In this document: positions 208-10,168 of the stretch, one piece after another | Position numbering within the stretch: the stretch's first letter is position 1 | Layout of the letters: every line of letters begins with the position of its first letter | DNA from: Candidatus Desantisiibacteriota bacterium | GTDB taxonomy: Bacteria > JACRDZ01 | Length of the DNA stretch: 10,168 bases | NCBI GenBank assembly: GCA_016209155.1 | Contig: JACQWU010000089.1 | Span: 859 to 11,026, forward strand | Reading direction: 5' to 3' | Notes under the pieces: generated by a model | The model's input: the letters and a program-made list of their open reading frames with translations, nothing else | Databases searched by the model: none | Told to the model about the DNA's origin: nothing | Translations under genes and position numbers: made by a program

Positions 208-1653
208 TTAGTATGAAGCAGTTTTTGATAGTGTTTTATATAGCTTTCTATATCTTCTATATTTTTTCATATATTCTTTATGTCTTTTTATATCAGGGGA
301 ATATACTTTTTCAAACTTTATTTTTATATCTGATAAAGATTTTATTTTACCGATAGAAACCAAAGCAACGATGGCAGCGCCGGCAGCACTTGCCTCTTTA
401 ATACACGGTACTTTTATTATTATATTAAAAATATCTGATTGCATCTGGAGAATTTTCTCTGTATGTACATATCCTCCGGTTGCTATAATCTCTCTATACG
501 CTTTTCTGTGAATAACTAAAATCCTATAACAATCATACAAATTAAATAGTATACCTTCGACCGCTGCCTTATATATATCACTGTTACTGTTTCCTGAATT
601 TAAGCCTATTAAAGAAGCAGACATTCTATAATTATAGTTAGGGCCTCTTTCGCCATCCAAAAAAGGCAGAACAATTATATCGGTTAATACATCAAGATCA
701 ATATTGTCAATATCCTCAAATAAACTGCTCGAATCTTTATGTAATATATTTTTACAGAACCAGTCCAGGGTCCTTACCCCGGCATTGATTGCAATACCAA
801 ATATATATTTATTTTCATATAAATAGTATTTCCATACTGATTTATTATGTTTTCGATAAGGGCTGATAATTCTAAGCGCAGCACTTGTACCAATAGTTGA
901 GCACATGGTTTTATCTGTTAAACATCCGATACCGACATTGCTTAAATGCCCGTCTCCTGCGCCAATCACTAATGAAACATCAGTATCCAACCTCGTTTCC
1001 AGCCTGATTTTTTCAAGCAATTCTTCAGAATGAAAAATGCTGAAGCATTCTGATAATTGATCCTTTGATATTCCTGCTATCTTTAAGATTTCTTTATCCC
1101 ATTTGAGAGATTTTATATTAAAAAGACCTGTAGTTGATGCTATCGCATAGGAAACAAGATATTTCCCTGTTAATTTGTATACCAGATAGTCTGATAAAGA
1201 TAAAAATTTATTTGCTCCTGAAAATATTTCTTTTTTATTTTCTTTCAGCCACAATATCTTCCATAAAGAATAAGACTCATGAATTATGCATCCGGTTTTA
1301 TTTTGTAATATTGCGGCTTGTTTTTTATTTTTTTTAAAATTTTCAGCAATTTCACATCCTCTTTTATCCATCCATGTAATTATATTAGTTAAGGGGCTGC
1401 CTTTTTCATCAAGCACAATAAGACTTGGGAAAATTGTACTCAGCCCTATTGCTTCTATTTTTACTTTTCTATTATTAGCTTTACATATTAAAGAGATGAC
1501 ATCTTTGAATAATTTTGCAGGATCAATTTCCTGCCCGCTGGAACCTGTACCTGAATAATCTTTTCTATCCGAATAAATTATCCCTTTCCTTCCATATAAT
1601 ACAAGTTTGATAGAAGATGTTCCAATATCTAATCCGGCTGTTACTTTTTCCAA
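208..1653 (-). CDS. FGGY-family carbohydrate kinase, gluconokinase-like
   Basis: A 481-residue cytoplasmic sugar or sugar-acid kinase, full length for the FGGY family. The phosphate-1 loop DIGTSSIK is at residues 9-16, the catalytic Asp of GAGDG at 234, GTSA at 255-258, and the second-domain ATGGY signature at 391-395. LDGERGPNYN at 332-341 resembles the GERxPxWN stretch of Bacillus-type gluconokinases. The gene starts at TTG and overlaps the upstream 6-phosphogluconate-dehydrogenase-like gene by 13 bp. A kinase of this type next to such a dehydrogenase recalls the B. subtilis gntK/gntZ pairing, so the expected reaction is ATP-dependent phosphorylation of gluconate or a related aldonate. Xylulose, ribulose or another polyol remain possible, because FGGY specificity cannot be read from motifs alone. 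It is the last gene of the operon. Confidence 0.88.
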   Translation of the reverse strand: MEKVTAGLDIGTSSIKLVLYGRKGIIYSDRKDYSGTGSSGQEIDPAKLFKDVISLICKANNRKVKIEAIGLSTIFPSLIVLDEKGSPLTNIITWMDKRGCEIAENFKKNKKQAAILQNKTGCIIHESYSLWKILWLKENKKEIFSGANKFLSLSDYLVYKLTGKYLVSYAIASTTGLFNIKSLKWDKEILKIAGISKDQLSECFSIFHSEELLEKIRLETRLDTDVSLVIGAGDGHLSNVGIGCLTDKTMCSTIGTSAALRIISPYRKHNKSVWKYYLYENKYIFGIAINAGVRTLDWFCKNILHKDSSSLFEDIDNIDLDVLTDIIVLPFLDGERGPNYNYRMSASLIGLNSGNSNSDIYKAAVEGILFNLYDCYRILVIHRKAYREIIATGGYVHTEKILQMQSDIFNIIIKVPCIKEASAAGAAIVALVSIGKIKSLSDIKIKFEKVYSPDIKRHKEYMKKYRRYRKLYKTLSKTASY

Positions 1654-2564
1654 TCAGTATGCCCTCCAAAAATATTTCTTGCAGCATTTATTATCTTCCC
1701 GCTATATGTAGGTTTTTTTTGTGAATCCATCCTGGCTTTTACAGCTGCCTTGCAGGAATAAATTTTTACTTTTGATTTATTTGCAATACTAATTAATTTT
1801 TGCATTTCTTTTAATGTCTGCCCGTAAACAGAACCGCTAATATCTTCTAAAGATGGATCTTTTTCAAAAGCTTTTTTTATATCCGATACAAGCCTTGATT
1901 CAATTATACTGCCTTTACTCCAGATATCACATACTTTTTCAAGACTTAAGTTTATACTCTCTTTTTTAGATATTGCGGATAAGCTTTCTAATCCCTCTGC
2001 TAAAGATTGTAGATAACCGTATTCAATTAAATTATGATATCCTTTCACCAAATGCCCTGCACCGCTTTTACCAAGATATTTATAAGAACCTTCAAACGAT
2101 AGGATTTCAAACAAATATTCCAGCTTTGACACTTCCTTTTTATCGCCGCCTATCATCAGGCATGCACCATTTCTGGCTCCATCAATACCTCCGCTCATTC
2201 CCGCATCAATAAAGTTTATTCCTCTTTTTTTTAAATTTTCAGATCTTCTTTGAGTATCTTTATAAAAAGAGTTCCCTAAATCAATAAGAGTATCACCAGA
2301 AGAAAGATATAAACTTAATTGATTTATAATCTCATCAATAGTTTTACCTGCGGGGACACAAAGAATAATTAGTTTTGGATCTGCCAATTTTAAAGCTACA
2401 TCCTCTATTGATTTACTTCCACAAGCTCCTTTTTTAACTATTTTATTAATATTTTCTTTTTTAAAATCATACACTATAATCGGCAGTTTAGAATGAATAA
2501 TTCTTTCCGCAATGCCTGCCCCCATTTTACCGAGCCCTATAAATCCAAGTTTTTTTTTAATCAT
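1641..2564 (-). CDS. gnd: 6-phosphogluconate dehydrogenase (decarboxylating), short form
   Basis: A 307-residue NAD(P)-dependent oxidative decarboxylase that would convert 6-phosphogluconate, or a close 6-phospho-aldonate, to ribulose 5-phosphate and CO2 in the cytoplasm. The N-terminal Rossmann fold carries GFIGLGKMG at residues 7-15. The substrate region has GNSFYKDT at 98-104, MSGGIDGA at 123-130, and the catalytic block with Lys174, Asn178 and Glu181 in the same spacing as the classical enzyme (K183, N187, E190 in sheep). The C-terminus ends with an Arg-x-x-Phe-Gly-Gly-His block at 296-302. The length matches the roughly 300-residue GntZ-like form, not the 470-residue Gnd. An upstream in-frame ATG at 2630 would add 22 residues and overlap the preceding gene; the ATG at 2564 is preferred because it has an SD site and directly precedes the Rossmann strand. 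Nine consecutive A residues lie just after the start. Confidence 0.85.
   Translation of the reverse strand: MIKKKLGFIGLGKMGAGIAERIIHSKLPIIVYDFKKENINKIVKKGACGSKSIEDVALKLADPKLIILCVPAGKTIDEIINQLSLYLSSGDTLIDLGNSFYKDTQRRSENLKKRGINFIDAGMSGGIDGARNGACLMIGGDKKEVSKLEYLFEILSFEGSYKYLGKSGAGHLVKGYHNLIEYGYLQSLAEGLESLSAISKKESINLSLEKVCDIWSKGSIIESRLVSDIKKAFEKDPSLEDISGSVYGQTLKEMQKLISIANKSKVKIYSCKAAVKARMDSQKKPTYSGKIINAARNIFGGHTDWKK
1662..1667 (-). promoter_or_regulatory. Shine-Dalgarno GGAGGG that fixes the TTG start of the kinase
   Basis: GGAGGG on the minus strand lies eight bases before TTG (1653-1651). No ATG or GTG occurs between it and the DIGTSS motif, so TTG is the only sensible start. The site lies inside the last codons of the upstream dehydrogenase gene, which suggests translational coupling. 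Confidence 0.75.
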
Positions 2565-2570
2565 TGCAAT

Positions 2571-2576
2571 TCCTTT
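2571..2576 (-). promoter_or_regulatory. Shine-Dalgarno AAAGGA deciding the start of the 6-phosphogluconate dehydrogenase
   Basis: AAAGGA on the minus strand is six bases before the ATG at 2564-2562, in the 31-bp gap after the cyclase stop codon. It supports the internal ATG over the one at 2630, which lies inside the cyclase gene. Confidence 0.65.
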
Positions 2577-2595
2577 CCGAACCGATAGAGGTTTT

Positions 2596-3336
2596 CTAAT
2601 GAGATAAAGGGATATAAGCATATGCCACAACAGGGCCGCCTGTAGCTCCTACTATTGCAACCGGGCTTGTCTGAAGATAAAAACCGCTCCTGTTTTTCTC
2701 CGGAATACTATAAAGATTCACAAGACATTCTACAATCAATTTATCTTTAAATTTTCTATGTGCGTAACTTTTTCCTATTTCGTCAATTGTTAAACTGTCT
2801 GTCCCGATTACTTTGATTTTATTAAATTTTGAAATTATTTTAATCGCGCTTCTATCCATATAAGGGATATTATCCGGAATATGTTTTTTATTTAACTTCA
2901 GGTACTTGTCGTAACCGGTCCTGAGTATCAAAGCACTATTGTTTTTTATTTGATCTATATAAGGCAGAAGATGTTTAGCTGTTATTTTCCTGAGGTATAT
3001 TATTCCATCAATTTTTTTAGAATCACCTGATTCTGATAAATCAATTAAACATGCCTTATTAAATACAAAATTAAGATCCCAGAATTCAAAACCCCTATTT
3101 TTATACTGAAGATTCTGGTGATTTGGAGCATCTCCGTGAGGATGATAATTGTGGTCACCTATTGAATATATATTATACCGGCAGCCATCTTTTTCAAAAG
3201 TACAAAATACCTTTTTTTCGGGTTTAGGGTCTCCCGGAAAAACTTCTGTATTTTCATTTAAAGGTTCAGACAGGCTTATTATTTTGAATTTTTTATTTTC
3301 TAATTTTATTATTTTTTGATTATTTGTTTTGCTCAT
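2596..3336 (-). CDS. cyclase / kynurenine-formamidase-family metal-dependent hydrolase
   Basis: A 246-residue protein of the PF04199 cyclase family, which includes KynB, isatin hydrolase and related Zn or Mn hydrolases that open amides, lactones or rings. The metal-binding stretch is at residues 61-73 with His62, His67, Asp69, Pro71 and His73. Against the usual HxGTHxDxPxH motif it has one extra residue between the first two His and lacks GT. The later VIGTDSLTID at 176-185 and E-x-L-x-N-L at 203-208 also fit the family. No signal peptide is seen, so it is probably cytoplasmic. The start lies three bases past the dehydrogenase/epimerase stop, with only a weak SD, suggesting translational coupling. 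Placed between a sugar dehydrogenase and an aldonate kinase/decarboxylase pair, a lactone or amide of a sugar acid is a reasonable substrate guess, but it is not shown by the sequence. Confidence 0.8.
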   Translation of the reverse strand: MSKTNNQKIIKLENKKFKIISLSEPLNENTEVFPGDPKPEKKVFCTFEKDGCRYNIYSIGDHNYHPHGDAPNHQNLQYKNRGFEFWDLNFVFNKACLIDLSESGDSKKIDGIIYLRKITAKHLLPYIDQIKNNSALILRTGYDKYLKLNKKHIPDNIPYMDRSAIKIISKFNKIKVIGTDSLTIDEIGKSYAHRKFKDKLIVECLVNLYSIPEKNRSGFYLQTSPVAIVGATGGPVVAYAYIPLSH

Positions 3337-3339
3337 TTT

Positions 3340-4299
3340 TTATCTGTTTAAAATATATTTTGATTCCTGTTTAATAGCATCCATAGAACTATACGCCGGT
3401 TTATGACCTATTTGCGCCATATTATTATAATTTGAGCAATAAATATTTTTTGAACCTGTTGCGCTGACATATACCGAAGCTTTACCTATTTCATATTTTA
3501 AACCGTATTGCGATGAAAAATAATCCAAAATTTCTATTTTTCCGGCAGGTCTTAAGCTTGTTACATCAAACGCTGTATTAATATTTTTAAAATCCATACA
3601 TTTTCTGACCACAGAAAAAAGGTCTTCCGGATGAACATAATCACGCACAATATTCACATTATTGGTAACAAACACCTTTTTATTTAAAATACAATTCATT
3701 ATTTCTGTAATAAAATAACCATCCGTTAAATCTATAAACCTGCTAAAATAAGAAAACAATCTCAAATCGGCAATTTTTAAATTTTTGAAAGATCTGTGCT
3801 TCGCTTCGGAATTCAATCTTACAATCGAATAATAATCTTCCGCCGCGACATGGTTGACCCTTATAACATTCGCGGTATTCTCTTCCACGGGCAATGAATG
3901 CTCCCTGCCATAAACAATCCCGCTGCTAAAACTGATATAAAGAGTATCCTGACAAACATTACATAAATACTTAATAATCAAATTGTCATATTCTTCTGTC
4001 ACAGTGAAATAATTCGAATAGTTACCTTTAAGTTTATTTATTGTCCCTACACCGACACAATTAATTATTGTATTATAAGAAAATTCATTGAAATCGTTGT
4101 ACCCTTCATGAATAATACAATTATCATCAGGTGATTTTCTTATGGTACTAAGGAAATTGATGGTTTTATCCCGGGATTTTGTAAAAAGATGCAAACTGAA
4201 TTTCGTGTTATGTAAAAAATTATTAATCAATCCCTTCGCGATATGGGATGTAGCGCCTAAAATAGCAATTTGTAATTTATGATTATTATCGAGGTTCAT
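3340..4299 (-). CDS. NAD-dependent epimerase/dehydratase (extended SDR) with Tyr-x3-Arg active site
   Basis: A 319-residue extended short-chain dehydrogenase of the sugar-nucleotide epimerase/dehydratase type. The N-terminal Rossmann loop is GATSHIA starting at residue 15, a variant of GxxGxxG. The catalytic Ser lies in SFSSG at 123-127. RDYVHPEDL at 219-227 matches the substrate-domain signature of the group. The usual YxxxK catalytic pair is Y157-SIV-R161, so Lys is replaced by Arg. The substrate may be a nucleotide-linked or free sugar; oxidation, reduction or epimerisation cannot be told apart here. Two in-frame ATGs are possible: 4323 (overlap of 38 bp with the upstream radical SAM gene, GG directly abutting the ATG) and 4299 (overlap of 14 bp, AGAGG about 13 bases upstream). 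I favour 4299 because it places the first beta strand near the N-terminus; SD evidence is poor for both. Confidence 0.78.
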   Translation of the reverse strand: MNLDNNHKLQIAILGATSHIAKGLINNFLHNTKFSLHLFTKSRDKTINFLSTIRKSPDDNCIIHEGYNDFNEFSYNTIINCVGVGTINKLKGNYSNYFTVTEEYDNLIIKYLCNVCQDTLYISFSSGIVYGREHSLPVEENTANVIRVNHVAAEDYYSIVRLNSEAKHRSFKNLKIADLRLFSYFSRFIDLTDGYFITEIMNCILNKKVFVTNNVNIVRDYVHPEDLFSVVRKCMDFKNINTAFDVTSLRPAGKIEILDYFSSQYGLKYEIGKASVYVSATGSKNIYCSNYNNMAQIGHKPAYSSMDAIKQESKYILNR

Positions 4300-5308
4300 A
4301 AAACTTTTTAAGCCTCTCGGCATCCTTATTTAAAACGTCTTCAGGAAAAAGTCTGTATTTAATTATATTGCACTTAGCGCATATCTCACAAATATTTTTA
4401 GCTCCGTCAAGCATTATACGCCTAAAACGCTGAAACTGATTTCCATTCCATATTTCGCGCACTGACTGCTCGTTACAATTACCGACCACCTCAGGGTACT
4501 CAAAAGAAAAACAGGGAACAACTTTACCATCAGGGTTGATTTGCATCGTAAAAAAAGGCTGAGGGCAAATCTTAACTTCTGAAACCGGCAGCCCGAATTG
4601 AGTAAGCGCCATATCTTTATTTTTTATCACATTCTCATAGTCAATCCCCGCATGGATAGGAACAGTATGCTCAATTGCCATGGTATCACAAATATCTCCA
4701 AAAATCCCATAAAATTTTTTTTCATCATCCTTATTATCCAGTGCGCTATCTACAATCTTTATATATACCTGTACATTACCTTTATTTTTATAAAAATATC
4801 GTAAATTTTCAATAAAATTATCAAAGTCAATATTTATTCCGCTTACTTTTTGGTATTTTTCTTTAGTTGTCCCCTGTAAAGATACTACCAGCCTTGTAAG
4901 CCCTGCTGAAATAAGTGAATTTGAGAGCTCAGGAGTTAGAAGAGAAGCATTTGTTAAAATTTCGATTGTTTTCGCAATGCTTTTTGAAGCCGCGTATTCA
5001 ACCATGTCAACTATTTTTTTATGTAAAAGAGGCTCTCCTATTCCTACAAAACGTAATACTTTAATTTTATCTGGAAATAAAGCTATATCGTCCACACTTT
5101 TTTTAAATAATTCAAAATCCATAATAATCTTATCGGAAATAAAACCGCGTTTTGCTTTATCTATTGAAAAAATACAATAACTGCATCTAAAATTACAGGA
5201 ATATACGGGAAATATCTGGATTACAAACGGCGTATCCAGAGGAAGTACTTCCGCGAGCTTTGTTCTTTTGCCGCCGGGTGCCTGACCGCTAATATCTTTT
5301 GCTTTCAA
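4286..5308 (-). CDS. radical SAM/SPASM protein
   Basis: A 340-residue radical SAM enzyme. The [4Fe-4S]-binding CxxxCxxC motif is C38, C42, C45 (SCNFRCSYC). The SAM-contacting GGEP motif is present as GIGEP at 89-93. The C-terminal SPASM-like region has C248, then 12 residues, G261-x4-C266, C278, and the cluster C307-x2-C310-x2-C313, which would bind at least one auxiliary Fe-S cluster. The family uses a 5'-deoxyadenosyl radical to oxidise, epimerise or cross-link peptides, sugars or cofactors. The substrate is unknown. The gene starts at TTG behind a strong SD, 16 bp after the Nudix gene, and its 3' end overlaps the epimerase gene. It lacks a B12-binding domain. No precursor peptide lies beside it, which makes a sugar or other small substrate the more likely choice. 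Confidence 0.85.
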   Translation of the reverse strand: MKAKDISGQAPGGKRTKLAEVLPLDTPFVIQIFPVYSCNFRCSYCIFSIDKAKRGFISDKIIMDFELFKKSVDDIALFPDKIKVLRFVGIGEPLLHKKIVDMVEYAASKSIAKTIEILTNASLLTPELSNSLISAGLTRLVVSLQGTTKEKYQKVSGINIDFDNFIENLRYFYKNKGNVQVYIKIVDSALDNKDDEKKFYGIFGDICDTMAIEHTVPIHAGIDYENVIKNKDMALTQFGLPVSEVKICPQPFFTMQINPDGKVVPCFSFEYPEVVGNCNEQSVREIWNGNQFQRFRRIMLDGAKNICEICAKCNIIKYRLFPEDVLNKDAERLKKFYEPR

Positions 5309-5315
5309 AATAAAA

Positions 5316-5321
5316 TCTCCT
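5316..5321 (-). promoter_or_regulatory. Shine-Dalgarno AGGAGA that fixes a TTG start
   Basis: AGGAGA on the minus strand is seven bases before TTG at 5308-5306, inside the 16-bp gap after the Nudix stop codon. There is no ATG near the N-terminus of this radical SAM frame, so TTG is strongly favoured. Confidence 0.75.
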
Positions 5322-5324
5322 GAA

Positions 5325-5831
5325 TTATTTTTTTTGGCTTATGTAATTCCGGTAAATTTCATGATATTTTATCAAATTATCCGGACAAAAATCATGCCAC
5401 ATAAGATAACCTTTATCTTCACGGGAAAGCCCTTTGTTTTGCGGAATAAAAGAACCGGGCAGGAAGCATTTATATAAAATCGAAATAAAATGGCTCCGTA
5501 TTTCGCGATCATGTTGAATAAGCTGATTTAAGGCAATCGGGACAAGATCAAAACTAACGCCGAAACCTATTTCAGTCTCCGCTACTTTTTTAATCCTTGT
5601 TTCAAATGTTTCCTTAAACCTGACAATTCCACCGGGTATATGCCATCCTTTTCCTGCATACTGGTCATTTCTCCAGGATAAAAGAGTACGGCCTTTTTCA
5701 TCTTTTATTAAAAGATCTACATTTACAAGCGGAGTTGTCCTGCTTATATAATAAAACACTTCGTCAGGGAGTCCCATCGAAGGATCCGGAACCTGTTTAA
5801 CAAGAACCTCAACAGCATCAGCAATATTCAT
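5325..5831 (-). CDS. Nudix hydrolase related to GDP-mannose mannosyl hydrolase
   Basis: A 168-residue Nudix-fold protein. TTPLVNVDLLI at 32-42 and GWHIPGG at 62-68 align well with the opening of E. coli GDP-mannose mannosyl hydrolase, a Nudix enzyme that splits GDP-mannose into GDP and mannose. The Nudix box runs from Gly68 to about Phe90, keeping Gly68, Glu74, Glu87 and Gly89 but with KVAETE where typical Nudix enzymes have REUxEE; the E. coli mannosyl hydrolase also departs there. By alignment from memory, Asp22, Arg37 and Glu70 of the E. coli enzyme are kept (Asp39, Arg54, Glu87). Arg52, Arg65 and the base His124 become Ile69, Lys82 and probably Lys140. The family fits a nucleotide-sugar role, but the substrate may not be GDP-mannose. 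The start has GGAGG at 5836-5840, four bases before ATG. Confidence 0.82.
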   Translation of the reverse strand: MNIADAVEVLVKQVPDPSMGLPDEVFYYISRTTPLVNVDLLIKDEKGRTLLSWRNDQYAGKGWHIPGGIVRFKETFETRIKKVAETEIGFGVSFDLVPIALNQLIQHDREIRSHFISILYKCFLPGSFIPQNKGLSREDKGYLMWHDFCPDNLIKYHEIYRNYISQKK

Positions 5832-5835
5832 AAAA

Positions 5836-5840
5836 CCTCC
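5836..5840 (-). promoter_or_regulatory. Shine-Dalgarno GGAGG of the Nudix gene
   Basis: GGAGG on the minus strand is four bases before the ATG at 5831-5829, within the 20-bp gap after the upstream radical SAM stop codon. The spacing is slightly short but acceptable. Confidence 0.65.
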
Positions 5841-5851
5841 ATAATAACCGG

Positions 5852-6877
5852 TTACCAGCCGGACTCACCTAAAAGGTTACAAGTTTTACAGGCTTCAGGA
5901 GGATCACTTAATGGATCTAAAAGCTGCTCTCGCATTTTTACTAATGTAGGGTGGTTGATGAGTTTTTCAGATTCACTATCAAACAAATTACTGCAGGGTC
6001 CCTCCAGAGTTTTGTCTATACCGCAGCAGATTACCATATTCCCTGATATATCGCAAGTGACTCGCTGCCAAAGCTGAGGACAAAGTTTTTTTACTTTCCC
6101 TGTCTGGATTGTAACCGGCCAGAGACAAAAATTCGGCAAAACCTCCTCCATACGCCTGCGGAATTCTATATATGAGGGAAGATTATCACTTATTATTTCT
6201 TTCGGCTGCGGATCAATCCCCATTGGACGATAAAGCCAAAAACGAAGACTGCGGCAGCCGGCGTCATGAATAAAACGCGCTATTTTTATAAGCTCTTCCT
6301 GCTCTTTCTCAACCTGACTGCGCAGCAGAACAAAACTCATATGTACCGGAAAAATCTGGTTAATTTTAGCAAGATCACGTTCAATAACCGGCCTATTGGC
6401 ATCATAAAGAGAAACATTTATTCTTGAAATCCCGGCTCGTTTTAAATCAGTTATTCGGTCAGCCAGCAATAAACCGTTCGTGGAAGTGTTAATAATATGG
6501 CCGCGTTTCGCCAGATAAGAAACAATACGGTCAAAATCATTAACCAGAAGCGGTTCCCCCCCCTGCAGGTCAACTAATAAACAATTACTAAATAACGGAT
6601 TGGTAAAAATTTGCCGGACTTTGGGAAGAGTAGCTTCGCTTTCACGCCATTTATCCTTCTCTTTTTGAAGTATTTTTGCCGCTGCGCAATATCCGCACTT
6701 GAGATTACAGCGCATTGTAACACACAAACAGGCAATCTGCGGTGTATACCGTTTTAATGACATAACAGCTTTACGCTGCATGCTGCGGTATTTTAAATAA
6801 TTCCAGGCTTTCGCAGTTGAATTTAATAAATTCAAATTATGATACATCTCATAATAATAGGATAGTTTGGAAGGCAT
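5852..6877 (-). CDS. radical SAM/SPASM protein with G8 tract in the SAM motif
   Basis: A 341-residue radical SAM enzyme. The cluster-binding motif is C57, C61, C64 (RCNLKCGYC), preceded by about 50 residues rich in Tyr, Leu and basic residues. The GGEP motif is at 106-109 and is encoded across a run of eight G bases. The SPASM-like region has C266, 12 residues, G279-x4-C284, an adjacent C285, then C295 and C330-x2-C333, consistent with auxiliary Fe-S ligation. An AGAGGA SD site eight bases before the ATG lies in the last codons of the methyltransferase gene, and only four bases separate the two genes. Its base composition is clearly richer in G+C than the methyltransferase upstream. The substrate is unknown; the neighbouring Nudix protein suggests a nucleotide-sugar or glycan context. 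Confidence 0.85.
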   Translation of the reverse strand: MPSKLSYYYEMYHNLNLLNSTAKAWNYLKYRSMQRKAVMSLKRYTPQIACLCVTMRCNLKCGYCAAAKILQKEKDKWRESEATLPKVRQIFTNPLFSNCLLVDLQGGEPLLVNDFDRIVSYLAKRGHIINTSTNGLLLADRITDLKRAGISRINVSLYDANRPVIERDLAKINQIFPVHMSFVLLRSQVEKEQEELIKIARFIHDAGCRSLRFWLYRPMGIDPQPKEIISDNLPSYIEFRRRMEEVLPNFCLWPVTIQTGKVKKLCPQLWQRVTCDISGNMVICCGIDKTLEGPCSNLFDSESEKLINHPTLVKMREQLLDPLSDPPEACKTCNLLGESGW

Positions 6878-6881
6878 TTTT

Positions 6882-7727
6882 CTAATCCTCTTTTTTCTTT
6901 ACCGCAAACACTGTTATTATGTCATGTAAATTTTTATATAATTTCAAATTTCCCAACTTTGTTCCTTCAAGCAATTTATAAATGCGGAAGAAAATATTAT
7001 TTTGCTCTCCTCTGGACAATCTGTAAAAAACCGTACTAAAAAACATCAAATGTCCCATATGCTTTGAAAAAACAACATTGAATGCCGCCTCATCAAGCGT
7101 CATGATAAATGCATAAAAATTTTTACCCATAATTTTTGCGTACAGGGAAGACAAGTCATGTACCTTGATAATCAGTATACCGCCCGGCTTTAAAAGCTTA
7201 TTGCATTTCTTCAGCGCCTCGACAGGATCTATCAAATGATCAAGAACATCCTGCATAGTTATGCAATCAAAAAGAAAATCAGGAATTTTATAATCCTCAA
7301 AAGTACCGACAAATACTTTATCACCGTACTTTCCCTTTGCGATATTGCCGTGGTTTAACGATCTTTCTATTCCATAACGCTCAAAACCCTCCATAACATC
7401 AAGAAAATACCCGGTATTGCAGCCTATATCAAGAATTTTCCCTGTCGGGATTTTATCAGTAATAACAGCCCTCAAATTACGATAATAGTATTTTAAGTTT
7501 TCAACATTTTCGTCATTCAAATAAACACAATTACCGATCCCCTTTTTATAATAATCATCTAATTCCTGCTGTGACAATTTCTCTTTAACAAACATCAGCC
7601 CGCAGGACAGGCATTGTGTAATAGTAAAATCATTAATGATAAACTTATTTTTAAAATTATTATTATGGCAAACAGGACAAAAGGAATGATAAATTTTGTT
7701 TTGTAAGCTATTATTTATATTTTGCAT
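6882..7727 (-). CDS. class I SAM-dependent methyltransferase with N-terminal zinc-ribbon-like motif
   Basis: A 281-residue protein of the Methyltransf_23/UbiG-like group. Two Cys pairs, C17-x2-C20 and C39-x2-C42, form a zinc-ribbon-like N-terminus common in methyltransferases of sugar and antibiotic loci. The SAM-binding motif I is ILDIGCNTG at 98-106, followed by an acidic strand end at YGIE (118-121) and QDVLDHLIDP at 159-168, then KPGG at 180-183. The C-terminal third has GHLMFFS at 225-231, which resembles the H-x-x-x-F-S element of the group. The acceptor could be an O, N or C atom of a sugar, nucleotide-sugar or other metabolite. It follows the preceding radical SAM gene by 18 bp with only a weak SD (AAGATAA), suggesting coupling. 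The gene is visibly more AT-rich than its neighbours. Confidence 0.85.
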   Translation of the reverse strand: MQNINNSLQNKIYHSFCPVCHNNNFKNKFIINDFTITQCLSCGLMFVKEKLSQQELDDYYKKGIGNCVYLNDENVENLKYYYRNLRAVITDKIPTGKILDIGCNTGYFLDVMEGFERYGIERSLNHGNIAKGKYGDKVFVGTFEDYKIPDFLFDCITMQDVLDHLIDPVEALKKCNKLLKPGGILIIKVHDLSSLYAKIMGKNFYAFIMTLDEAAFNVVFSKHMGHLMFFSTVFYRLSRGEQNNIFFRIYKLLEGTKLGNLKLYKNLHDIITVFAVKKKED

Positions 7728-7745
7728 TTTATCTTATTTCTATAT

Positions 7746-8834
7746 TTATATTTCATTAAATGGTTTTTTTGTTTTATCTTCATCCGTAAAAACTTCTGCG
7801 CACAGAACCGGCAATGGTTTATTATATACACGGTTTACTATATATTTGTTAATAAAATTTCTATCTTCAGCGATAAGGCAGGTATTAATATGCTCGCCAA
7901 AGTATTTAATATCCAGACCTCTTTGAATTATATCTTTTAAAGGCTCTTTAAAAACATTCCCTATTGATACATGAATATACGGACAGGGCAGGACATCTCC
8001 GTATTGAGTTACAGAGAACATTCCCTTAACCGCGATACATCCCATATCAAGGCCGTATGCCGGGGTTAAATGGGTAAATACTTTATATTTTTTTTCAAGC
8101 TCCTCCATGTACTTCATATCATCCTTATTCACTAAAACATCAAAATTACCTTCCCATGAACCAACAGGCTTTGCGTAAGTCACAAAAACACCTATATCCT
8201 TTTTATTGAAATACTCAACAAATTTTATAAATTCATCTGAATGGAGCCTTTGTTTAGTAACAACTGTTTGAACAAAAATTGCCAGATCCGCGTTTTTAGC
8301 GATATCAACCGCTTTCATAGCTCTCTCGTATGAACCCCTGGCATTTCTGAAACTGTCATGTTCCTCCGCGTTAAAGCTGTCAAGGCTTAATTGAATCCTG
8401 TCAACACCTATACTCTTTAAATGCCTGGCTGTTTTTTCATCGAAAAGCCAGCCATTTGTATCACAGTTTATATAAAATTTTTCGGGATTAATAGCCTCTA
8501 CCAGCTGGTCAAAATCCTTAAACACCAATGGTTCTCCGCCGGTAATAGTAACACGCGCCAGCCCAAGTTCATCCGCCTGGCGAAAGAGCTCTTTCACGTC
8601 AGCTATAGTAAACTGTCTCGCGTCTTTTTTCCCTTGAAATCTTTTCACAGAACAATGAACACAACGGAAATTACAGGTATAATTATATTGAAACTGGATA
8701 ATCGCTATGCTTTCTCCCCGCTTATATTTTTCTTCAAATTTTACAATTTTTTCATAAACATAAGGCTTCTTCAGCTTCAACAGGTTTCTCCTGCCGGCTT
8801 CGGACGGTTTTAACTCTATCTTCTGGTTTGACAT
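7746..8834 (-). CDS. radical SAM protein with SPASM-like C-terminus
   Basis: A 362-residue radical SAM enzyme. The cluster motif is C54, C58, C61 (TCNFRCVHC), with TGGEPL at 98-103 and further barrel signatures such as CDTNGW at 124-129 and IQLSLDSF at 147-154. The C-terminal region has C266, 12 residues, G279-x4-C284, and then only two widely spaced Cys, C319 and C345, which is fewer than a full seven-Cys SPASM. The layout recalls the MoaA/NirJ/PqqE-like group, but nothing identifies a specific member. The start at 8834 is chosen over the ATG at 8858 because AGGAG lies five bases before it, while 8858 has no SD. The upstream gene ends 43 bp away. The substrate is unknown. Confidence 0.83.
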   Translation of the reverse strand: MSNQKIELKPSEAGRRNLLKLKKPYVYEKIVKFEEKYKRGESIAIIQFQYNYTCNFRCVHCSVKRFQGKKDARQFTIADVKELFRQADELGLARVTITGGEPLVFKDFDQLVEAINPEKFYINCDTNGWLFDEKTARHLKSIGVDRIQLSLDSFNAEEHDSFRNARGSYERAMKAVDIAKNADLAIFVQTVVTKQRLHSDEFIKFVEYFNKKDIGVFVTYAKPVGSWEGNFDVLVNKDDMKYMEELEKKYKVFTHLTPAYGLDMGCIAVKGMFSVTQYGDVLPCPYIHVSIGNVFKEPLKDIIQRGLDIKYFGEHINTCLIAEDRNFINKYIVNRVYNKPLPVLCAEVFTDEDKTKKPFNEI

Positions 8835-8839
8835 TTTAA

Positions 8840-8844
8840 CTCCT
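8840..8844 (-). promoter_or_regulatory. Shine-Dalgarno AGGAG that decides the start at 8834
   Basis: AGGAG on the minus strand is five bases before the ATG at 8834-8832. It lies inside the eight codons that would be gained from the ATG at 8858, which itself has no SD-like sequence upstream. The shorter protein is therefore preferred. Confidence 0.7.
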
Positions 8845-8877
8845 AATTTTTTGTCCATGATAAAATTCTATTATCAA

Positions 8878-9846
8878 TTATTTGTTATTTCTTAACCATT
8901 TAATTGTTGCCATGTCTTGATCACATGCCGCGGTACACGGCAGGCAGCAATATACCGGCGATTTATCGAGCTTAAAGTCCGGGGCAAAGAGATTGCCCAT
9001 TAAGAAAAAATCCGGATCATAAGGAGCATCAGGCCCCATTGTCAATAATCGCTTTTTCAACGGACTGTGAAAATAATCACTACCGCCTACGCAGCGAAAA
9101 ACAGTCCCGTCCGGCATAAGGTTAATATAGTTCTGCCCGGCTGAACATTCCTTCTTAGTATAGGAAGTAAAATCCAGCATATTGAGACTGCTCCTGTCTG
9201 ACGCAAGATACCGGGAAAGGATAAGCATCTCCTCCTGGGTATATACAAATGCGGTATCGGGGTCAACAAACGGATCAATGTGCAAACTGACGTTATGATC
9301 CTTCAAAATTTCCTCAAGCCCCTGAATCATTTGTATATTTTTTCTCGTTGCAACCAGATTTATATTGATATGAAATCTTCCAATTCTGCGCAATTCATCG
9401 ATCTTGCTGATAAACTGGTCATCATTAACAAATTCACTGTGATAAGACACATTAAGATGCATTTTCTTTTTTATGCGTTCATAGACAGCTGTTTTTACTG
9501 TCGCATTTGTAACCAGACCAAGTATTTTATGTTTCTTCAAGCCATTGATCAGTTCAGGCATGCCATCATACAAAAATGGCTCTCCTCCGCTAATATAAAT
9601 ATTTGCCCTGGGCAGCTTATCAAGAGCACCAATCCAGGCTTCAACTGTCGGTTCTTTTTCTTTGGTATATATATTTGAATAACTAAACCTTGTGACCCAG
9701 GGACAATATGAACACCGGTAATTACAGCGAAAAGTCACCATGAAATTTATACATAACTGATTAGGGAACATTTTTCTATAATACGGCTTTAACGCATTCT
9801 TAACCGATGCGGGAAGATAACGTTGCAAAATAGTAACATCGATCAT
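8878..9846 (-). CDS. radical SAM protein with shortened SPASM cysteine pattern
   Basis: A 322-residue radical SAM enzyme. The cluster motif is C41, C45, C48 (RCNYRCSYC), with ISGGEPF at 85-91. The C-terminal region has C234, 12 residues, G247-x4-C252, and a terminal cluster C300, C301-x2-C304-x3-C308. The full SPASM pattern would have CX2CX5CX3C here, so a reduced auxiliary site is likely. About 40 residues with basic and aromatic character (LPASVKNALKPYYRK) precede the core, but no clear signal peptide or membrane segment. The start is at an ATG ten bases after the upstream gene, preceded by AAGGGGGGG. Local base composition is the richest in G+C of the window in the lines sampled. The substrate is unknown. 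Confidence 0.84.
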   Translation of the reverse strand: MIDVTILQRYLPASVKNALKPYYRKMFPNQLCINFMVTFRCNYRCSYCPWVTRFSYSNIYTKEKEPTVEAWIGALDKLPRANIYISGGEPFLYDGMPELINGLKKHKILGLVTNATVKTAVYERIKKKMHLNVSYHSEFVNDDQFISKIDELRRIGRFHININLVATRKNIQMIQGLEEILKDHNVSLHIDPFVDPDTAFVYTQEEMLILSRYLASDRSSLNMLDFTSYTKKECSAGQNYINLMPDGTVFRCVGGSDYFHSPLKKRLLTMGPDAPYDPDFFLMGNLFAPDFKLDKSPVYCCLPCTAACDQDMATIKWLRNNK

Positions 9847-9849
9847 ATG

Positions 9850-9858
9850 CCCCCCCTT
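9850..9858 (-). promoter_or_regulatory. Shine-Dalgarno-like AAGGGGGGG with a G7 tract
   Basis: On the minus strand AAGG is followed by five more G, ending three bases before the ATG at 9846. Its first two bases lie in the stop codon of the upstream gene (9859-9857). A seven-base G run at this place could alter SD spacing if its length varies; variation is not shown by one sequence. Confidence 0.55.
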
Positions 9859-10168
9859 AATATTTATGATATGTCAACGGTTTATTTATCTGTACAGCCG
9901 GAGGGACTTCATTCCCTGACAAAGGCCGTCCATTACAATATTCGCATATCTCAAGATAATCTTTTTCTAAAAGATACGCTCTGACTTTATTTTTTGTTTC
10001 CTGAATATTTTTTATATCAACAAGTTCTTGAAACAGATCAATATAATCACTTTTATTATCCGGTACCGCCGCTAATCTGAAAGCATTCGCCGCATAGGGA
10101 CACCGGAACAATTTACCATCCGATAAAGTAGCCATATTTTTGGCACAGCATATTTTAAATATTTCTTT
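9857..10168 (-). CDS. C-terminal part of a radical SAM/SPASM-type protein, cut by the window edge
   Basis: Only the last 103 codons are inside the window. The frame stays open to position 10168, and the residues before the ATG at 10135 (IFKICCAKN) belong to the same conserved stretch, so that Met is internal and not the start. The fragment has two adjacent Cys, then G-K-L-F-R-C (GX4C with 9 to 10 residues before the Gly), then CEYCNGR near the end, followed by VPPAVQINKPL. This matches the SPASM-like tail of radical SAM proteins, here probably a separate family from the other four because the end is CxxC-N-G. The CxxxCxxC core would lie outside the window, so the assignment rests on the tail and the context. 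It ends ten bases before the next gene, pointing to the same transcript. Confidence 0.7.
   Translation of the reverse strand, partial: KEIFKICCAKNMATLSDGKLFRCPYAANAFRLAAVPDNKSDYIDLFQELVDIKNIQETKNKVRAYLLEKDYLEICEYCNGRPLSGNEVPPAVQINKPLTYHKY

Follow-up and report, generated by a model that had tools for sequence, protein, structure and literature searches.

A window of 10,168 nucleotides from a Candidatus Desantisiibacteriota bacterium (C37:859-11026 of the source genome, G000) carries on its minus strand four complete genes for radical S-adenosylmethionine (SAM) proteins, RS1 to RS4, part of a fifth, RS5 (its C-terminal 103 codons), a methyltransferase (MT) and a Nudix protein. We consider it reasonably probable that this window forms the downstream section of a cluster whose genes make and modify a carbon-branched 3,6-dideoxy sugar, activated with cytidine diphosphate (CDP), for a surface glycan. 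The evidence comes from two further contigs of the source genome, from the genes that accompany RS3 elsewhere and from the nearest relatives of the enzymes.

The radical SAM run and its extension

The right edge of the window coincides with the end of contig C37, so RS5 is truncated by the assembly and not by the choice of window. From right to left the minus strand holds the tail of RS5, RS4, RS3, the methyltransferase, RS2, the Nudix protein, RS1, a short-chain dehydrogenase/reductase (SDR) of the epimerase family (EPIM), a cyclase, a 6-phosphogluconate dehydrogenase-like protein (6PGDH) and an FGGY kinase.

9857..10168, minus strand: RS5, radical SAM protein, C-terminal 103 codons (55% identical to residues 307-408 of a 414-residue homologue)
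8878..9846, minus strand: RS4, radical SAM protein without close relatives found (PF04055)
7746..8858, minus strand: RS3, core radical SAM protein, auxiliary cluster with three invariant cysteines (PF04055; 72-sequence alignment)
6882..7727, minus strand: MT, SAM-dependent methyltransferase with an N-terminal CPxC zinc-like motif (PF13489/PF08241)
5852..6877, minus strand: RS2, radical SAM protein with a C-terminal cysteine motif (PF04055; 58-60% homologues in loci L064, L065 and L084)
5325..5831, minus strand: Nudix protein, GDP-mannose mannosyl hydrolase-like, with a degenerate Nudix box (PF00293; NCBIfam NF011963 below cut-off)
4286..5308, minus strand: RS1, radical SAM protein with a four-cysteine twitch-type auxiliary cluster (Pfam PF04055 and PF13186; nearest solved relatives BtrN and DesII)
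3340..4323, minus strand: EPIM, extended SDR of the NAD-dependent epimerase family (PF01370)
2596..3336, minus strand: PF04199 cyclase-type hydrolase (Pfam; 69-73% homologues in L062 and L106)
1641..2630, minus strand: 6-phosphogluconate dehydrogenase-like protein (NCBIfam NF007161 above cut-off)
208..1653, minus strand: FGGY-family sugar kinase, the final gene of the unit (PF00370/PF02782)

The original prediction, made from the letters of this stretch, had described a minus-strand run of four complete radical SAM genes and part of a fifth, none an obvious copy of another, all with a C-terminal GX4C motif, separated by gaps of 43 bp or less and leaving no room for a precursor peptide. Each of these points was borne out. 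Pfam Radical_SAM (PF04055) lies above its cut-off in RS1, RS2, RS3 and RS4, RS5 is recognised through a full-length homologue whose matches are divided between two contigs, and all five proteins contain CX3CX2C as well as GX4C. Pairwise identities are 17-30%, the gaps from RS1 to RS5 are 16, 20, 4, 18, 19 and 10 bp, and no intergenic open reading frame (ORF) of at least 20 amino acids was present inside this unit. The EPIM reading frame overlaps RS1 by 38 bp.

A full-length RS5 homologue of 414 residues from another genome joins C37 to a second contig of the source genome, C220. Residues 307-408 of this protein map to the end of C37 and residues 6-294 to the start of C220 (C220:1-869), in compatible orientation and with approximately 12 residues missing between them. 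Going upstream, C220 encodes two glycosyltransferases (GT2b, then GT2a), a thiamine diphosphate (ThDP) enzyme, a haloacid dehalogenase (HAD) family protein and a NeuB-cupin protein; extension of the contig, which had been suggested as a way of finding glycosyltransferases, thus revealed two. GT2b is frameshifted here (L059:1231-1239) and unbroken in relatives, through sequencing error or decay, and the ThDP gene is interrupted by 14 N. We infer a unit that runs NeuB-cupin, HAD, ThDP, GT2a, GT2b, RS5, RS4, RS3, MT, RS2, Nudix, RS1, EPIM, cyclase, 6PGDH and FGGY. Beyond NeuB-cupin lies a divergent gene, proton pyrophosphatase-like by eye. A search with the contig-end sequence found no second copy. 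Contig C341 was also considered as the source of the missing half of RS5 and was rejected, the homologue mapping to C220 instead; C341 begins with a cut radical SAM gene (L010:2-304) that is NrdG2-like (anaerobic ribonucleotide reductase activase) by eye.

A third contig, C336, carries the CDP-3,6-dideoxyhexose genes DdhA, DdhB and DdhC. DdhB scores 492.7 bits against a cut-off of 278 and DdhC 671.9 against 423, and DdhA stands beside them as two fragments, approximately 78% and 70% identical to relatives. The pathway logic of a CDP-dideoxyhexose, a NeuB-cupin protein and a ThDP ligase was missed originally because these genes lie outside the contig.

Recurrence across phyla

We scanned species genomes using the RS3 orthologue alignment alone as seed, kept the best 80 of 113 confirmed relatives and counted genes in the 42 of these loci that are at least 18 kb long. 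As RS3 was the sole selection criterion, the presence of the other genes is independent evidence. The best 80 of the 113 loci span 22 named phyla, with hosts that include Omnitrophota, Firestonebacteria, Elusimicrobiota, Lentisphaerota and Kiritimatiellota, and also Bacillota (Lachnospiraceae, Clostridium), Thermotogota (Marinitoga), Pseudomonadota (Magnetococcales) and archaea. RS3 relatives were absent from plasmids at 1e-20, and those in phages are below 30% identity.

Among the 42 long loci the ThDP gene is found in 40 and NeuB-cupin in 39, followed by Nudix (32), DegT/RfbH (30), a C-methyltransferase (CMT; 25), a nucleoside triphosphate (NTP) transferase (24) and a dehydratase (22). The ThDP enzyme, NeuB-cupin and RS3 occur together in 37, and in 25 they are joined by two or more Ddh genes. 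Recurrence of the gene set elsewhere, a test that the original prediction had raised, therefore divides: RS3, ThDP, NeuB-cupin and Nudix recur widely, but RS1 is present in only 17 long loci, EPIM in 14, RS5 in 9, RS2 in 2 and RS4 in none. A single defined five-step radical pathway is not supported; RS3 is near-universal in the loci that it seeded, and the other radical SAM genes are modular.

The modules have consistent partners. RS5 is accompanied by GT2b in all nine of its long loci and comes immediately after it in eight loci, an order identical between C220 and eight other loci. Both long loci with RS2 also carry MT (the RS2-MT pairing of L064 and L065), EPIM directly follows RS1 in eight loci, and the cyclase-6PGDH-FGGY run is intact in L062 and L106, where it adjoins GT2b-RS5. 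RS1, RS2 and RS5 are separable modules, combined on a common branched-sugar core, and RS4 is an orphan. Counted by a simple motif, at least three radical SAM genes are present in 20 of the long loci and at least five in 7, some of them B12-binding. The mutual exclusion of RS1 and CMT (p 2e-9) was rejected as functional evidence, being essentially one clade split and not a set of independent events. In the distant RS3-like loci L043-L047 (approximately 26-36% identity) no Nudix homologue was detected at the threshold used, and no neighbouring NeuB or ThDP gene was noted in this comparison, whose queries were the genes of the window.

Two further associations were noted. In L067 (L067:12677-17609) and L097 a recurring add-on module consists of an FkbM methyltransferase, related radical SAM genes (family 34) and an alcohol dehydrogenase of the iron type. 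In L118 (L118:17207-20835), and likewise in L094 and L119, two tandem B12-binding radical SAM genes (HpnJ/BchE-like) adjoin the same sugar cluster. We found no published account of the cluster in the open-access library searched, nor any paper there that links radical SAM enzymes to NeuB, yersiniose or CDP-glucose.

A candidate route to a branched sugar

Gene content, order and recurrence were read directly from the genomes, and every reaction below is proposed from sequence. In the relatives' loci the NTP transferase, dehydratase and DegT protein exceed the curated cut-offs for glucose-1-phosphate cytidylyltransferase, CDP-glucose 4,6-dehydratase and RfbH, which would constitute a route to CDP-4-keto-3,6-dideoxyglucose. 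In the source genome DdhA, DdhB and DdhC, judged by family, would make the same compound as a first step.

Enzymes of the NeuB type condense phosphoenolpyruvate (PEP) with an aldehyde to give a 4-hydroxy-2-oxo acid. The NeuB domain PF03102 is present in relatives, and NeuB-cupin scores 394 bits against the solved structure 3g8r; the NCBIfam equivalog cut-offs for NeuB and PseI are not reached (126 bits against 400 for the first, 120 against 340 for the second). In the second step NeuB-cupin would join PEP to an aldehyde in this manner and the HAD protein would take off a phosphate. The closest solved relative of the ThDP enzyme, taken from the orthologue in L066, is JanthE (8rph, 402 bits), with acetolactate synthase next at 297 bits. 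The related YerE adds activated acetaldehyde, derived from pyruvate, to CDP-3,6-dideoxy-4-keto-glucose, and the YerE-like ErwE acts on CDP-4-keto-3,6-dideoxyglucose, refusing pyruvate and preferring 4-hydroxy-2-oxo acids (PMC12247030). By analogy, NeuB-cupin and HAD may supply the donor of the ThDP enzyme, which would explain their tight pairing. In the third step, modelled on these relatives, the ThDP enzyme would decarboxylate a 2-oxo acid, possibly the NeuB-cupin product, and transfer the acyl group onto the 4-keto carbon to form a branched sugar.

The YerE-type pathways to yersiniose, erwiniose and caryophyllose (DdhABC with YerE, ErwE or JanthE) resemble the present system in the DdhA, DdhB and DdhC genes of the window's genome, in the JanthE-nearest ThDP enzyme and in the surface-glycan setting. 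The clusters described here differ in having NeuB-cupin and HAD in addition, together with as many as six radical SAM enzymes in a locus. The main text of a 2025 review of YerE-like enzymes makes no mention of radical enzymes, polysaccharide or NeuB (PMC12247030).

In a fourth step RS3, probably acting with an SDR epimerase, may alter the nucleotide sugar at one of its carbons or in its side chain. Six cysteines of RS3 (C62, C66, C69, C274, C292 and C327) are invariant in the alignment of 72 sequences, three of them auxiliary. In the three-cysteine auxiliary arrangement of MoaA a site is left for the substrate. MoaA (GTP 3',8-cyclase) is also the closest protein to RS3 in a profile search of the PDB, and it shares the three auxiliary cysteines with RS3, as does BlsE (cytosylglucuronate decarboxylase); RS3 differs in being 20-26% identical to them. 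The predicted structure (pLDDT, the predicted local distance difference test, 93) has SkfB (Z 22.9), SuiB (21.7), a viperin-like protein (20.9), BlsE (20.2) and MoaA (20.2) as fold neighbours, the scores of BlsE and MoaA being level with those of the peptide maturases and of viperin. In two loci RS3 is fused to an epimerase, as epimerase-RS3 in a Woesebacteria record (L101:1865-4024) and as RS3-epimerase in a deltaproteobacterial one (L126:3-2048), and the opposite orders suggest that these were probably separate events. This fusion is the best clue to the substrate of RS3.

In RS1, Cys38, Cys42 and Cys45 and the auxiliary Cys248, Cys266, Cys310 and Cys313 are kept in at least 95% of 21 orthologues. 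A hidden Markov model alignment matches RS1 to BtrN, the 2-deoxy-scyllo-inosamine radical dehydrogenase of butirosin synthesis, through both the GX4C and CX2C motifs. BtrN is also the nearest fold to the RS1 model (Z 22.4 over 237 residues, root-mean-square deviation (rmsd) 2.7), with which RS1 shares the core, the twitch domain and four auxiliary cysteines in matching places; RS1 differs in being approximately 90 residues longer, 22% identical and accompanied by an SDR in a locus for nucleotide sugars. Next is DesII (Z 21.0 over 292 residues, rmsd 3.6), a deaminase or dehydrogenase whose substrate, TDP-4-amino-4,6-dideoxyglucose, is a nucleotide-linked deoxysugar; identity is 16%, and DesII carries a large extra N-terminal part. 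As a fifth step RS1 would remove hydrogen at a carbinol carbon, most probably in a BtrN-like oxidation to the ketone, and the adjacent EPIM would reduce or epimerise the product. The position of EPIM directly after RS1 suggests such an order of oxidation, then reduction or epimerisation.

The sixth step would comprise optional tailoring by RS2 with the methyltransferase and by RS5 with a family-2 glycosyltransferase. The sole PDB sequence match of RS5 is a weak one (E 3e-4) to 7wzv, the spectinomycin twitch radical SAM dehydrogenase SpeY, from which RS5 differs in an extra N-terminal Rossmann-like segment of approximately 140 residues and in its linked glycosyltransferase. Those radical SAM enzymes with sugar substrates that have been characterised, such as BtrN, DesII, SpeY and AprD4, come mostly from antibiotic pathways. 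In a seventh step the Nudix protein, which resembles GDP-mannose mannosyl hydrolase (Gmm) and scores under the cut-off of that family (43.8 bits against 146), may cleave a nucleotide sugar.

RS4 has no orthologue at E<=1e-12 in 386 genomes outside its own match and none in the RS3-seeded loci. A close relative was also lacking in genome contigs, viral contigs and the PDB, and plasmids returned only distant mycofactocin-type enzymes. RS4 stands alone although every neighbouring gene has relatives.

We advance a broader proposal tentatively, as possible rather than probable: that these clusters define a widespread, horizontally spread class of surface sugar, in which a YerE-like enzyme decarboxylates a 4-hydroxy-2-oxo acid made by NeuB and attaches it to a CDP-4-keto dideoxyhexose. 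The product would be a branched sugar of very large size, edited by a modular radical SAM set (RS3 as core; RS1, RS2, RS5 and B12-binding enzymes as options). Already on the main reading, a branched CDP sugar for a surface glycan, a conserved radical SAM family is tied to surface-glycan sugar synthesis in more than 20 phyla, among archaea, candidate-phylum bacteria and the cultured Marinitoga and Butyrivibrio. If the main reading is right, a class of branched sugars not yet seen is to be expected, YerE-like enzymes such as JanthE gain a candidate source of their donor acids, and several radical SAM families that are still uncharacterised gain substrates open to testing.

Alternative readings and the spread of RS3

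Several observations weigh against a branched CDP sugar as the product. The fold scores of RS3 (Z 20-23) single out no sugar enzyme, and RS4 has no informative relative. All three Ddh genes accompany ThDP, NeuB-cupin and RS3 in 16 of the 42 long loci, and in the source genome they lie on a separate contig. The role of NeuB-cupin as donor source is drawn from analogy and adjacency, and pyruvate could be the donor instead. In G001, a genome of the same phylum, the 20 kb covered at L171 contain the NeuB-cupin-HAD-ThDP core, a methyltransferase and a glycosyltransferase but no RS3, which is therefore not obligatory. We are aware of no glycan structure from any of these hosts.

The strongest alternative, which we think unlikely, is that the radical SAM enzymes serve a surface-glycan locus but act after glycosyl transfer, on a lipid-linked or polymerised glycan or on a glycosylated protein and not on the CDP sugar. 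Such a timing would suit the restriction of RS5 to loci with GT2b, and the interleaving of glycosyltransferase and radical SAM genes, but it fits poorly with the fusion of RS3 to an epimerase of the nucleoside diphosphate-sugar type in both orders and with the SDR sugar enzyme that often directly follows RS1. Rather less likely again is a nonulosonic-acid-type sugar made by NeuB-cupin, with the ThDP and radical SAM enzymes modifying the acid or its cytidine monophosphate form and not a CDP-dideoxyhexose. NeuB-cupin recurs as steadily as the ThDP gene, and some Bacillota loci hold ThDP, NeuB and RS3 without nearby Ddh genes. In pseudaminate synthesis PseG releases the free sugar for the NeuB-type step, and the Gmm-like Nudix protein could likewise free the sugar that NeuB needs. 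Against this stand the distance of NeuB-cupin from the NeuB equivalog cut-off, the RfbF type of the cytidylyltransferase in these loci and the recurrence of the Ddh genes with the cluster.

That the radical SAM/SPASM-like proteins are maturases of ribosomally synthesised and post-translationally modified peptides (RiPPs), located by chance within a glycan island, is very improbable: the best structural matches of RS3, SkfB and SuiB, are peptide maturases and many more occur among the NCBIfam matches of RS1-RS4, but all of these fall far below their curated cut-offs, the auxiliary cysteines (three in RS3, four in RS1) are short of a full SPASM set, the gaps leave a precursor gene no room in the window, and no recurrent short precursor was noticed in the locus gene maps, which list ORFs of at least 70 amino acids. 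The RiPP precursor that the original prediction had named as contrary evidence was thus not found. Its preference for a sugar or glycan substrate over a peptide is supported by the nucleotide-sugar genes of the homologous loci, the glycosyltransferases of C220 and the RS3-epimerase fusions, in line with the branched CDP sugar that we favour.

In the RS3 tree many phyla are intermingled. The RS3 of the window is nearest to sequences from Kiritimatiellota, Omnitrophota and one Patescibacteria lineage, and its best relative in a genome of the same phylum is only 43% identical. This mixing fits horizontal spread, with the caveat of mis-binned contigs in metagenome genomes. The core itself is not foreign to the phylum, as G001 owns the NeuB-cupin-ThDP-HAD set. 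Querying the 386 genomes with NeuB-cupin gave matches in nine. At 57% identity or more there were five genomes, the source included, with ThDP nearby in all five and RS3 in four; two genomes matching at 48-49% had neither, and the two at approximately 42% matched in the NeuB part only and had no RS3. In this small sample the reciprocal search points to NeuB-cupin and ThDP as the tightest pair, with RS3 as their frequent partner.

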